47,895 nucleotides of DNA from NCBI GenBank assembly GCA_937900875.1, contig CALCGD010000136.1, positions 1 through 47,895 on the forward strand, given 5' to 3'. How positions within the stretch are numbered: position 1 is the stretch's first letter; each line of letters starts with the position of its first letter. The position numbers were made by a program, and so were the translations under genes. The notes below the pieces were generated by a model that was not told the origin of the DNA, ran no database searches, and was given only the letters and a program-made list of their open reading frames with translations. The DNA is from an uncultured Flavobacteriales bacterium (GTDB lineage Bacteria > Bacteroidota > Bacteroidia > UBA10329). This document shows, in pieces, positions 13,298 through 37,107 of this stretch.

Positions 13298-13954
13298 GTG
13301 TTAGCGCAAGTCAAAACCTTATTTCTGAAAGAGTTCACGCTTGAGTGGAGAAATCGCTATGCGTTGAACGGCATGTTGCTTTATGTAATCAGCACAGTTT
13401 TCGTTTGCTATCTCAGTTTTAGAAATGTGGTTTCTGTTCCCGTTTGGAACGCCCTTTTCTGGATTATTATGCTCTTTGCATCCCTTAATGCGGTCGGGCG
13501 CTCCTTCATTCAAGAACGAAAAGGAAGATTACTCTATTACTACAGCATAGCATCGCCACAAGCATTTTTGTTAGCCAAAATGGCTTACAATTCGCTGCTA
13601 ATGCTGGTCATTACTTTTTTAGCGTACGGAATTTACGCATGGTGGATTGGAGATTTAGTGCAAGACCATCTCATGTTCATGGTGGCTTTGGTGCTTGGGT
13701 CCACGGGGTTTTCGCTCATTTTAACGCTTATGTCTGCCATCGCATCTAAGACCGAAAACAACATGAGCTTGATGGCAATTTTGAGTTTTCCAGTTCAGTT
13801 GCCGTTTCTTATTACACTTATCAAACTATCTAAAAACGCAGTGGACGGTTTGGATGCAAGTGTCAGCTACGGACTAATTACAGTTTTAGCGCTGATCATT
13901 GTCATCGTTCTCGCCCTTAGCTACATACTATTTCCCTACCTTTGGCGCGATTAA
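13298..13954 (+). CDS. ccmB: Heme exporter protein CcmB (GTG start)
   Basis: 218 aa with 6 TM-like segments, upstream of ccmC-F; LFLKEFTLEWRNRYALNGMLLYVI. Confidence 0.88.
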   Translation: MLAQVKTLFLKEFTLEWRNRYALNGMLLYVISTVFVCYLSFRNVVSVPVWNALFWIIMLFASLNAVGRSFIQERKGRLLYYYSIASPQAFLLAKMAYNSLLMLVITFLAYGIYAWWIGDLVQDHLMFMVALVLGSTGFSLILTLMSAIASKTENNMSLMAILSFPVQLPFLITLIKLSKNAVDGLDASVSYGLITVLALIIVIVLALSYILFPYLWRD

Positions 13955-13993: not shown

Positions 13994-14698
13994 ATGCTTA
14001 AAATCGGAGAAACATCAACACAAATTTTGGGGCTTGCCTGGTGGAAGTGGATTTCCATCGCGCTAATTCTTTTTTCGCTTACAGCGGGAATGATTTTGGA
14101 CGTTCCAAAGCTGCCAATCCTTCATGAAACTATTCGTAATCTGTACTACCATGTAACTCAGTGGTTTGGAATGATGATTATTCTAACTGCTTCATTGGTA
14201 TACAGCATTATTCATCTTTCCAAGGGCGATAGACGTTCGGATATTATTGCTTCCGAAGGGGTTAACGTAGCACTTTTCATGGGCGTTCTCGGATTACTAA
14301 CTGGAATGCTTTGGGCCAAGAACACTTGGGGAACGTATTGGACAGGCGATGCCAAACTGAATGGCGTTGCAATGGGAATGTTGGTTTATTTGGCATACAC
14401 GGTCCTCCGTGGAAGCATGGATGAGGAACAGAAACGTGGTCGCGTTTCGGCTGTGTACAACATCTTCGCTTACGTCATGTTCATGGTTTTTATCATGGTG
14501 CTACCGCGAATGACTGATAGTTTACACCCAGGAAATGGGGGTAACCCTGGTTTCGGAGGTTACGACCTTAACAGCAACATGAGATTAGTATTTTATCCTG
14601 CCATCATTGGCTGGACGCTACTTGGCGTTTGGTTCATCAACATTCGTGTTAGGATGAAATCGATTGAAGAAAACAGATTATCAAAGTCACATCAATGA
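13994..14698 (+). CDS. ccmC: Cytochrome c biogenesis protein CcmC
   Basis: 234 aa; divergent WWD region WGTYWTGDAKLNG; PRMTDSLHPGNGGNP. Confidence 0.9.
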   Translation: MLKIGETSTQILGLAWWKWISIALILFSLTAGMILDVPKLPILHETIRNLYYHVTQWFGMMIILTASLVYSIIHLSKGDRRSDIIASEGVNVALFMGVLGLLTGMLWAKNTWGTYWTGDAKLNGVAMGMLVYLAYTVLRGSMDEEQKRGRVSAVYNIFAYVMFMVFIMVLPRMTDSLHPGNGGNPGFGGYDLNSNMRLVFYPAIIGWTLLGVWFINIRVRMKSIEENRLSKSHQ

Positions 14699-14898
14699 AA
14701 CGATTCCTGAACCTACTTCTGCTTTTGGCAATGCCAATTTTCACTTTTGCAAGTGATGTTGAAATGGCAGATTTGCTGCACGAAAACGGAAAAATTTACG
14801 TGGTTGTCGCTGTCATTGCGATCATTTTCGTAGGTATCGTTGTTTACCTCGTGACCATCGACCGTAGGTTGACCAAAATTGAGAAAGAAGAGAAATGA
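14695..14898 (+). CDS. ccmD: CcmD family protein
   Basis: 67 aa, single TM then basic tail RRLTKIEKEEK, overlaps neighbours by 4 bp in ccm order. Confidence 0.8.
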   Translation: MKRFLNLLLLLAMPIFTFASDVEMADLLHENGKIYVVVAVIAIIFVGIVVYLVTIDRRLTKIEKEEK

Positions 14899-15311
14899 AA
14901 AAGACACACATTCTCGCAATTATTGTGATTGCATTGGCCATTGGTGCCATCATGACCACGGTTTCAGACAGCAGCACGTATTCCAATTTCAAAGAGGCGA
15001 TTGAAAATCCTGGAACAGAATATCATGTGGTTGGGCAGTTAGACAAGGAATCTGAATTGATGTATGACCCTGAAGTTGATGCAAACCTCTTTGCCTTCAA
15101 CATGATTGACAATAATGGTGATAATCACAGGGTTCATTTTGCAGGTTCAAAGCCACAAGATTTTGAACGTTCAGAGCAGATTGTTCTTGTAGGCAAGTAC
15201 GAAAACGACATGTTTCAAGCTTCAACTATTCTAATGAAGTGCCCATCAAAGTACAATGAAGGGCAAGAAGGCGAGATGCAAGAGTTTACTGCGAAAACGG
15301 CTTCTTTTTAA
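14895..15311 (+). CDS. ccmE: Cytochrome c maturation protein CcmE, CxxxY type
   Basis: 138 aa, N-terminal TM plus OB-like domain; ILMKCPSKYNEG where HxxxY is expected. Confidence 0.88.
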   Translation: MKKTHILAIIVIALAIGAIMTTVSDSSTYSNFKEAIENPGTEYHVVGQLDKESELMYDPEVDANLFAFNMIDNNGDNHRVHFAGSKPQDFERSEQIVLVGKYENDMFQASTILMKCPSKYNEGQEGEMQEFTAKTASF

Positions 15312-17731
15312 TGGATATCAATTACATCGGAGAGCATCTCTGGGCAGGTCAATTAGGCCAAATCAGCATTATAATCGCTTTTGTTTCTGCATTTGTTGCG
15401 GCCATTGGTTATGCATTTGCATCTAGAAATGATGCTGCTTTCAGCGATTGGAAATTGCTATCGAGAAGTGCTTTCAGCATTCATATTCTTTCGGTTTTTA
15501 GCATAATCGGAACACTCCTTTACATGCTTTACAATGGGATGTTCGAGTACCATTACGTGTGGCAGCATTCCAATTCGGAAATGCCAATGCGCTATATTAT
15601 GTCCAGTTTTTGGGAAGGGCAAGAAGGAAGTTTTCTGCTTTGGCTTTTTTGGCATGCTGTGCTTGGTGCGATACTTCTGAAGACCTCCAAAACGTGGGAA
15701 GCACCAGTAATGTCTGTGTTTGCCATGGTGCAAATGTTCTTGGTATCGATGGTCTTGGGCATCAATCTGGGCGATGTGATTCGGATAGGAAGCACACCAT
15801 TTCTGCTGCTACGCGAGCATCCAGACTTCATGAATTTGCCATTCTTACAGAATGCAGCTTATTTGGATAGACTAGATGGCCGCGGACTAAATCCTTTACT
15901 TCAGAATTACTGGATGACAATTCATCCTCCAACACTATTCCTTGGTTTTGCCTCTACACTTGTTCCGTTTGCTTTCGCGATTGCTGGTCTTTGGAAAAAG
16001 AAATACACCGAATGGATGAAGCCTGCTTTGCCATGGACCTACTTCGGAGTAATGATTCTCGGAACAGGGATTTTAATGGGTGGCGCTTGGGCTTATGAAG
16101 CTTTGAGTTTCGGTGGTTTTTGGGCATGGGATCCTGTAGAGAATTCAAGCCTTGTTCCGTGGATTACGCTCGTTGGAGCAGCGCACGTTATGGTAATTCA
16201 GAAAAACCGTGGGCAATCGCTCATAATGACGTTTGTGCTTACCACGGTCACGTTCATTCTCATTCTGTATTCCACATTCCTAACCAGAAGCGGAATTCTA
16301 GGAGAAACATCCGTGCACGCCTTTACCGATTTAGGCATGTCTGGTCAGCTGCTGATCTACCTTTTATCATTCACGTTTCTTACCATCTTCTTACTTATCA
16401 TCAATTGGAAAGATATTCCAAAATCAAAGGACGAAGACAGTCTTTACTCGCGTGAGTTTTGGATGTTTATCGGTGCCTTGGTGCTGGTTATTTCCTCCTT
16501 CCAAATCATGTTTACTACCTCTATTCCAGTTTGGAATAAGCTATTGGGAACCAACTTGGCACCACCTCTTGATCCGATTGCTCATTTCAATAGTTTTCAG
16601 ATACCACTGGCAATAATTTTATCCTTACTTATTGCTGTTACGCAGTATTTTAAATACAAGAAATCCGACCCGCAGCAGATTACCAAAGCACTGACCATTC
16701 CATTCATTATTTCGTTGATAGGAACTGCTGCCATAGGATACGCAATGCATTATCGCAATGTGATGTATTTGGCCATGTTGTTTACCACACTGTTTCTTAT
16801 TTGTGCCAATGCGTATTACTGGCTGAAAATGTTGAAAGGAAAACTGAAAATTGCTGGTGCTTCCGTAGCACACATCGGCTTTGGAATGATTCTTCTTGGA
16901 GCATTCCTCAGCACTTCTAAAACTCAGGTCATTTCCATGAATACATCTGGTACCGATGTGGAAAGTTTGGGTTCTAAGGGCGATTTCTCTAATAGAGAAA
17001 ACATCCTAATGATGAAGGGAGATACGCTGCGTATGGCAGACTATTTTGTGACCTATGCAGGTAAGAAGAAGGAAGGTGTTAACGTGTTCTATCAGGTGGA
17101 CTACCTCACTAAAACGGACAACACGTATAACCTCGAGTTCTCGCTTTATCCGCGTGTGCAGACTAATCCACGCATGGGCAACATTGCGGAGCCAGACACC
17201 AAGCATTTCTTGCACAAAGACATTTACAGTTTTGTGACTTATGCTGAAGTGGAGACTGAAGAGGCGAAGAACAAGCCAGAAGAATACAAAAAGACTCTTA
17301 CCGAATCTTTGGCAAAAGGAGATACATTGATTACCAGTCAGGCATTTGTGATTTTAACCGGATTTAATCTGGAGGTAGATCGTGCAAAAAGCCAATTACT
17401 TGAAGACGACATAGCAGTGGAGCTATTGCTTACCGTAATTGATATTAATGGGAAAGCGCAGAACACCTCCACAATCTTCGTTATCAGAGGTAATAAGTCG
17501 TTCGGAATACCCGCCAATTTAGAGGATTTAGGACTAAGACTGGTGGTTCAAAAAATAATTCCAGAGGACGGAAAAGCAGAAATTTCAGTGTATGAAAAGC
17601 CAGATAATTACCGCGAATTTATTGTAATGCAAGCCATGATATTCCCATGGATTAATATCCTTTGGGCTGGTTGCTTGGTTATGATTATTGGAACCATTCT
17701 AGCAATGAGAAGAAGGCTGAAAACAGCTTAA
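15311..17731 (+). CDS. ccmF: Heme lyase CcmF
   Basis: 806 aa; FGGFWAWDPVENSSLVPW WWD domain, multi-TM. Confidence 0.93.
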   Translation: MDINYIGEHLWAGQLGQISIIIAFVSAFVAAIGYAFASRNDAAFSDWKLLSRSAFSIHILSVFSIIGTLLYMLYNGMFEYHYVWQHSNSEMPMRYIMSSFWEGQEGSFLLWLFWHAVLGAILLKTSKTWEAPVMSVFAMVQMFLVSMVLGINLGDVIRIGSTPFLLLREHPDFMNLPFLQNAAYLDRLDGRGLNPLLQNYWMTIHPPTLFLGFASTLVPFAFAIAGLWKKKYTEWMKPALPWTYFGVMILGTGILMGGAWAYEALSFGGFWAWDPVENSSLVPWITLVGAAHVMVIQKNRGQSLIMTFVLTTVTFILILYSTFLTRSGILGETSVHAFTDLGMSGQLLIYLLSFTFLTIFLLIINWKDIPKSKDEDSLYSREFWMFIGALVLVISSFQIMFTTSIPVWNKLLGTNLAPPLDPIAHFNSFQIPLAIILSLLIAVTQYFKYKKSDPQQITKALTIPFIISLIGTAAIGYAMHYRNVMYLAMLFTTLFLICANAYYWLKMLKGKLKIAGASVAHIGFGMILLGAFLSTSKTQVISMNTSGTDVESLGSKGDFSNRENILMMKGDTLRMADYFVTYAGKKKEGVNVFYQVDYLTKTDNTYNLEFSLYPRVQTNPRMGNIAEPDTKHFLHKDIYSFVTYAEVETEEAKNKPEEYKKTLTESLAKGDTLITSQAFVILTGFNLEVDRAKSQLLEDDIAVELLLTVIDINGKAQNTSTIFVIRGNKSFGIPANLEDLGLRLVVQKIIPEDGKAEISVYEKPDNYREFIVMQAMIFPWINILWAGCLVMIIGTILAMRRRLKTA

Positions 17732-35655: not shown

Positions 35656-37107
35656 TTGAAGAAAAGTTTAATAGGGTTTGTATTTCTACTGTTCGGGGCT
35701 ACTGTTAGCGGACAGTCGCTCAATCTAATAGGTTCTATTTCTGGATTGGCAGATGAGGGTTTAACACTCACGTCTCCACCCGATTGGTTTGGTAATACAA
35801 AGAAGGAAACCATACCAGTTGTGGCGGGCGCATTCAATAAAGATGTGATTTTGTCTGCAAGCGGTTGGCTCACGTTGACGTATAAAGACAAGGACCGGTC
35901 CATTTACGTTTGGAAAAACGCTTCCGCTTTGGAAGTGCAATTTGAAGCCGATTTTCTGGATTCTGACTTTAGTTTGAAAGGTGAAAGCGCGGCCATTTCA
36001 AGTTTTTCCGACTCTATTAGTAAGAAGTTCGGTTCTAAATTGACGATTGGTTGGCTAGAAGAGCAAGCGAAAGAAGCAACTAACATAGACGCAATGGAAA
36101 TGGAAACATTCCGCTTGCGAAATGATGCGGTTTTTGCTCTCGAAAAGTTCGGGCAGCTCCTACCTGAAGAGTATGTAAAGGCTTATAAAAATCATCTAGG
36201 TTATCATTATTACTTGTCGTTGTTTAAGTTTTCTGAAGCCAAATCGGCTAAAAGCAACATTCCTAAGGCGACAGAAATCCCTAAGGTTTTACTGCAAGGC
36301 ATTACCTGGGAAAGAATGAATAAAGCCTCTGAATTGGATAGCGAATTCTTTAGAGAATTGCTCATCCAGTTTGTCAATTACAAGGCACTTGAAACATACG
36401 ATTTCATGAAGTTTGGCACGAAAGAATCTGCCGTTCAAGAGGGGTTCAATCTTGCAAGAGAAAATTTGCAAGGAGCTTCATTGCAGTATTTTCTCACCGC
36501 ATCTATGCTATCGAATGCTCAGTTTGTTCAACCTTCATTATTGCGTCAAATGCAAGCCACGTTAAAAGCCACAGAAGGGTCTACGCCATTTGTCGAGGTT
36601 ATTATGGCGAATATATCGGAGCGTTTGGATGCCAAAGATGACGAAGTGGAATTAGCTGTGTCTGAGCAAGCCACCGACCACGATGCAATTGACCTTGAGT
36701 TGGAAGGATTAGACGGAAAGTCTTTCAAACTATCTGACCTAAAAGGAAAAGTGGTTTACCTGGATATTTGGGCTAGTTGGTGTGGTCCGTGTCGCAAAGA
36801 ATTTCCGGCTGCAAAAGCGCTCAAAGAGAAGCTCTCCAAAAAGGACAAGAAGAACATTGAATTCTTATACATTTCAATCGACAATACAGAAACGGTTTGG
36901 AAAATGGCCATTAAAGAACTTGAGATTGAAGGAGTTCATGGTATTTCAAAGGGAGGATGGGGCTCAGAAGCAACTGCTAAATTTGGCGTTCATAGTATTC
37001 CTCGTTATCTCATTTTTGACAAAAAGGGAAAAGTTGTAGACGGAAATGCGCCAAGAGCCAGCGATCCTCGTTTGTTGGAAATGCTCAGGAAATTAGCCGC
37101 AGAATAA
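35656..37107 (+). CDS. TlpA family thiol-disulfide reductase (TTG start directly after previous stop)
   Basis: 483 aa; signal peptide; C-terminal WASWCGPCRKEFPAAKAL. Confidence 0.9.
   Translation: MKKSLIGFVFLLFGATVSGQSLNLIGSISGLADEGLTLTSPPDWFGNTKKETIPVVAGAFNKDVILSASGWLTLTYKDKDRSIYVWKNASALEVQFEADFLDSDFSLKGESAAISSFSDSISKKFGSKLTIGWLEEQAKEATNIDAMEMETFRLRNDAVFALEKFGQLLPEEYVKAYKNHLGYHYYLSLFKFSEAKSAKSNIPKATEIPKVLLQGITWERMNKASELDSEFFRELLIQFVNYKALETYDFMKFGTKESAVQEGFNLARENLQGASLQYFLTASMLSNAQFVQPSLLRQMQATLKATEGSTPFVEVIMANISERLDAKDDEVELAVSEQATDHDAIDLELEGLDGKSFKLSDLKGKVVYLDIWASWCGPCRKEFPAAKALKEKLSKKDKKNIEFLYISIDNTETVWKMAIKELEIEGVHGISKGGWGSEATAKFGVHSIPRYLIFDKKGKVVDGNAPRASDPRLLEMLRKLAAE

Follow-up and report, generated by a model that had tools for sequence, protein, structure and literature searches.

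The window analysed here, a stretch of 47,895 nucleotides from an uncultured Flavobacteriales bacterium, contains a group of cytochrome c maturation genes in which the heme chaperone CcmE carries a cysteine where the classical protein has its heme-binding histidine. This raises the question of whether we are looking at a peculiarity of one gene or at a different type of maturation machine, and whether such a machine could deliver heme to cytochromes without CcmH. Allen et al. (2006) is reportedly the paper in which the Cys-type variant of CcmE was defined. Machines containing this variant, usually together with the lack of CcmH, are known as System I* and were reviewed in 2011 (PMC3601427). 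The same review named delta-proteobacteria, Chloroflexi and Firmicutes as System I* groups, found CPSKY more often than any other motif (25 of 36) and reported that CcmH is kept in about one third of the bacteria with the variant CcmE (PMC3601427).

Organization of the ccm locus

The genes ccmB to ccmF lie on the same strand (Table 1). The overlaps between ccmD and ccmE (ATGA) and between ccmE and ccmF (TAATG) look as in a translationally coupled operon, and CcmC keeps a WWD-type pattern (WGTYWTGDAKL). According to the original prediction neither ccmH nor ccmG follows ccmF, and the next gene does encode a DUF2520 protein instead; but the missing ccmG says little, because TlpA/ResA-like thiol-disulfide proteins occur elsewhere, one of them within the window.

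Table 1 Features of the ccm locus and of the TlpA/ResA-like gene in the window
Feature	Position	Strand	Evidence
ccmB, heme exporter permease	13298..13954	+	Pfam PF03379, 42 bits, above cut-off
ccmC, heme delivery to CcmE	13994..14698	+	Pfam PF01578, 48 bits; top NCBIfam match ccmC
ccmD-like small membrane protein	14695..14898	+	PF20077 CcmD_alt, 76 bits; TIGR04391 above cut-off
ccmE, periplasmic heme chaperone, Cys type	14895..15311	+	Pfam PF03100; OB-fold model
CPSKY motif, residues C116-Y120 (position of E. coli H130-Y134)	15240..15254	+	gap-free profile alignment; codons
ccmF, cytochrome c heme lyase, 806 aa	15311..17731	+	Pfam PF01578 and PF16327; Thermus CcmF 6zmq, E=1e-33
CcmF H205 (IHPP)	15923..15925	+	invariant, 100% of 62 Bacteroidota CcmFs
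CcmF WWD heme-handling segment, residues 260-278 (WAYEALSFGGFWAWDPVEN)	16088..16144	+	conserved in 62 CcmFs; aligned with Thermus CcmF
CcmF enlarged beta-rich periplasmic domain, residues 538-769	16922..17617	+	alignment; model pLDDT 88
TlpA/ResA-like thiol-disulfide protein	35656-37107	+	WCGPC following N-terminal domain

The heme-binding position of CcmE

The CcmE protein has 138 amino acids and contains ILMKCPSKYNEGQEG in the translation of its ORF. It matched the Pfam CcmE family with 48 bits (cut-off 24.6) and starts with a membrane helix that is followed by the CcmE domain. The motif is encoded by TGC CCA TCA AAG TAC. We aligned 26 Bacteroidota CcmEs and compared the resulting profile with CcmEs of known structure. 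K-C-P-S-K-Y fell over E. coli K-H-D-E-N-Y with no gaps (8ce8_E and 1sr3_A), the E. coli segment VLAKHDENYTP pairing with ILVKCPSKYNE so that C116 equals H130 and Y120 equals Y134, and the K-C-P of the Cys-type CcmE of D. vulgaris (2kct) paired with the same residues of the profile. Translation and alignment thus agree with the original prediction of a CxxxY motif (CPSKY) in place of HxxxY, and the cysteine, far from being displaced from the heme-binding site, aligns exactly with the H130 column. Judging from this alignment, it occupies the heme-binding column of the classical CcmE. Residues K115, C116, P117, S118 and Y120 were invariant in the 26 sequences, a conservation that excludes a chance origin of the cysteine.

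The AlphaFold2 model of CcmE (pLDDT 85) shows an OB-fold, and its last long strand, residues 106-115, stops just before C116. Foldseek retrieved the CcmE structures 8ce8, 1lm0/1j6q, 2kct and 1sr3 with a probability of 1.00 and E-values above 0.001. A segment of the Dictyostelium nuclear pore protein Nup160 (PDB 9hcj_R0, approximately residues 1585-1650) also matched the CcmE profile (E=1.3e-6) and the fold.

Distribution in the Bacteroidota

CcmE was present in 192 of 297 Bacteroidota genomes. We read its sequence in 107 other genomes of these 192, comprising 80 that mostly represent one per genus and 27 more chosen among the lowest-scoring matches, where exceptions would hide; about 84 were left unread. 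All 107 had the cysteine, always as KCPSKY save two KCPSRY and one RCPSKY. Counting the protein of this genome, [KR]CPS[KR]Y was found in 108 of the 108 CcmEs inspected and HxxxY in none, and the motif was also found in seven genomes of the same genus. The trait had been presented as a feature of this particular gene, a view that these counts do not sustain. On the sequences sampled, the Cys-type CcmE appears to be a phylum-wide trait, fixed in Bacteroidota. A pattern scan of a contig collection gave 580 matches, of no use for counting Cys against His since KCPSKY itself was the query.

Two irregular versions of the gene were seen. One genome (G062) has a second CcmE-like protein of 112 aa (L259:1369-1704, + strand) that stops just before the CxxxY motif and is encoded directly upstream of a UvrB-like ORF, with a weaker match in G295. 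In a genome of the same genus that is 83% complete (G298; L149, L150), ccmE is broken by stops and a change of frame, what could be an assembly error or decay.

Canonical CcmH was found in none of the 297 genomes. Weak matches appeared in seven of them, two above the cut-off, and were rejected as canonical CcmH, the six that were decoded being a different Zn-ribbon/Cys-rich protein. This protein (L123:1216-2004, - strand; also L124, L125, L126, L127 and L129) begins with a zinc ribbon and has a single membrane helix and two Cys-rich domains that resemble CcmH (FxCxCGxC ... QFIR ... KYG). It occurs in two families of the phylum (f17 and f35), both with Cys-type CcmE and without canonical CcmH, and is a candidate stand-in for CcmH.

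Other pathway genes in the genome

The genome-wide check for ccmA, ccmG and ccmH had a mixed outcome: no ccmH (PF03918, zero matches in this genome and in 38 relatives), a candidate ccmA unlinked to the operon, and the TlpA/ResA-like protein in the window. The assembly consists of 355 contigs and is 96% complete, so that an absent gene could fall in a gap, though the 297 genomes of the phylum agree on the lack of CcmH. There is a single CcmE in the genome, and neither a CcmH nor a second set of assembly proteins accompanies it, so no HxxxY protein with a full ccm set was found elsewhere in the assembly to weaken the original prediction. Only two PF01578 proteins were found, CcmC and CcmF of the ccm operon itself, and therefore the genome has no System II CcsA. 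That the Ccm genes might have decayed or lost their function, leaving the cytochromes to be matured by System II, would agree with the unlinked ccmA and with nothing else; the lack of any further PF01578 (CcsA) protein and the five intact ORFs, overlapping or closely spaced and with invariant catalytic residues, make it extremely improbable.

The gene ccmA is not adjacent to ccmB. We built a CcmA profile from the ATPases adjoining ccmB in other Bacteroidota, after removing GldA and one further outlier. The best match in this genome was an ATPase of 216-220 aa on contig C149 (L138:3826-4473, + strand), directly after lpxA and far from ccmB, that scored 174 bits; the second-best ATPase reached 124. 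With the NCBIfam ccmA model the same protein scored 80 bits, below the cut-off of 131.6; actually, this model is unfit to pick CcmA here because 38 ABC ATPases match it and none above the cut-off. Sequence comparison thus suggests that CcmA is probably encoded away from the ccm operon, beside lpxA.

The genome also has a DsbD/CcdA-like protein. Together with the TlpA/ResA-like protein, which could fill the role of CcmG in apocytochrome reduction, it indicates that the thiol-reducing side of the pathway is not empty in spite of ccmF having no ccmG downstream. The potential substrates, retrieved from PF13442 matches, are at least eight ORFs with CxxCH, one with six such motifs. A 350-aa ORF with two CxxCH motifs is among the c-type cytochromes and could be a cbb3 oxidase subunit.

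CcmF and the absence of CcmH

Four histidines of CcmF (205, 292, 336 and 521) were invariant in the alignment of 62 Bacteroidota CcmFs, and no position had a conserved cysteine, indicating that CcmF has not gained a thiol site to replace CcmH. Some other thiol protein, not recognised as such, might instead work with CcmF in the place of CcmH. The membrane-anchored Zn-ribbon protein of some Bacteroidota families, with its tandem CcmH-like Cys-rich domains, and the TlpA/ResA-like protein in the window speak for this, but the former has no match in this genome, CcmF has no conserved cysteine of its own, and in M. acetivorans ccmABCEF seem to be sufficient when placed in M. barkeri (PMC9084895). 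We consider such a substitute unlikely, if still worth bearing in mind.

The enlarged periplasmic domain of CcmF sits between the last two helices and has no conserved Cys or His. A fold search gave no significant match, CcsBA coming second (E=5e-3, TM 0.25); on the model, CcsBA would be the nearest plausible fold match, only a lead. One could speculate that in a phylum-wide CcmH-free System I* this Cys-free domain assumes the apocytochrome-holding role of CcmH/CcmI and gives the Bacteroidota machine a structure intermediate between those of Systems I and II, an idea to which we give little credence.

A probable System I* machine

The locus combines a cysteine in the heme column of CcmE, CcmB, CcmC and CcmF above their Pfam cut-offs and the absence of CcmH, all as in System I*. 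With CPSKY instead of HxxxY and no CcmH it departs from classical System I, and with no CcsA-type PF01578 protein beyond CcmC and CcmF it departs from System II. The Cys-type CcmE machine found here belongs thus to an already known type and is no oddity of this genome. The original prediction had taken the cysteine as the mark of a variant System I that lacks CcmH. The type was correctly recognised, but the rule on CcmH is too strict because about a third of the Cys-type bacteria keep this protein (PMC3601427). A Metabacillus plasmid (NZ_CP088246), the sole match in the plasmid collection, encodes a KCPSKY CcmE together with CcmH, so that both can coexist.

This plasmid shares with our locus the KCPSKY CcmE, CcmF, CcmB, a CcmC-like protein and a CcmD family protein, and differs in having CcmH. 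The System I* of D. desulfuricans and D. vulgaris has in common with it the CxxxY Cys CcmE, the lack of CcmH, CcmD and the OB-fold (2kct), but here ccmA is unlinked, ccmD is of the CcmD_alt type and CcmF, at 806 aa and with the enlarged periplasmic domain, is probably larger. CcmABCEF of Methanosarcina acetivorans also combines a CxxxY CcmE with the lack of CcmH and CcmI; archaea have no CcmD, and in M. acetivorans CcmF occurs as CcmF1 and CcmF2, whereas here there are CcmD_alt and a single CcmF. With E. coli System I (CcmABCDEFGH) the locus shares homologues of CcmB, CcmC, CcmD, CcmE and CcmF, the CcmF histidines and WWD segment, and a CcmE that aligns along its OB-fold; the differences are the Cys for His in CcmE, the absence of CcmH and the lack of a single ccmA-H operon.

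We conclude, with a probability of roughly 0.9, that the locus is the ccmBCDEF core of a cytochrome c maturation machine of the System I* type, in which CcmE would carry heme via C116 and CcmF would transfer it independently of CcmH. In the proposed mechanism, CcmB, CcmC and CcmD, together with a CcmA encoded elsewhere, would load heme onto CcmE, which would hold it via C116 rather than a histidine, with Y120 as the likely iron ligand. CcmF would then hand the heme from CcmE to CxxCH apocytochromes without CcmH. The Tyr ligand, the assignment of CcmA and the CcmH-independent function are inferred, as is the covalent attachment of heme through the cysteine.

In the literature searched we found no experiments on a Bacteroidota CcmE, and the covalency of the Cys-heme bond is not settled even for the Cys type. 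CcmE could bind heme only non-covalently through the Cys thiolate and act as a chaperone without a covalent intermediate, as suggested by the D. vulgaris protein, in which ferric heme was reported to be bound non-covalently via C127 (PMC3884852). However, the D. desulfuricans operon, which has a Cys-type CcmE and lacks CcmH, produces holocytochrome when expressed in E. coli, and its CcmE binds heme covalently (PMC3601427). In M. acetivorans the change C120A abolished heme on CcmE (PMC9084895). In both, the covalent heme depends on the cysteine. A purely non-covalent chaperone appears to us the less probable alternative, and rather doubtful.

Significance

No mention of the fixation of the Cys-type CcmE across Bacteroidota was found in the open papers searched, nor any Bacteroidetes-specific paper on the subject. 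What is added here is that the cysteine is fixed in the Bacteroidota sampled and that canonical CcmH is absent from all 297 sampled genomes. For annotation, a missing ccmH and an unlinked ccmA in Bacteroidota do not equal an incomplete pathway. The Cys-type CcmE, until now a curiosity known from archaea and a handful of bacteria, turns out to be the form of all the CcmEs that were read in a large phylum. Bacteroidota include many species that can be cultivated and in which the covalency of heme on CcmE and the action of CcmF without CcmH could be resolved.
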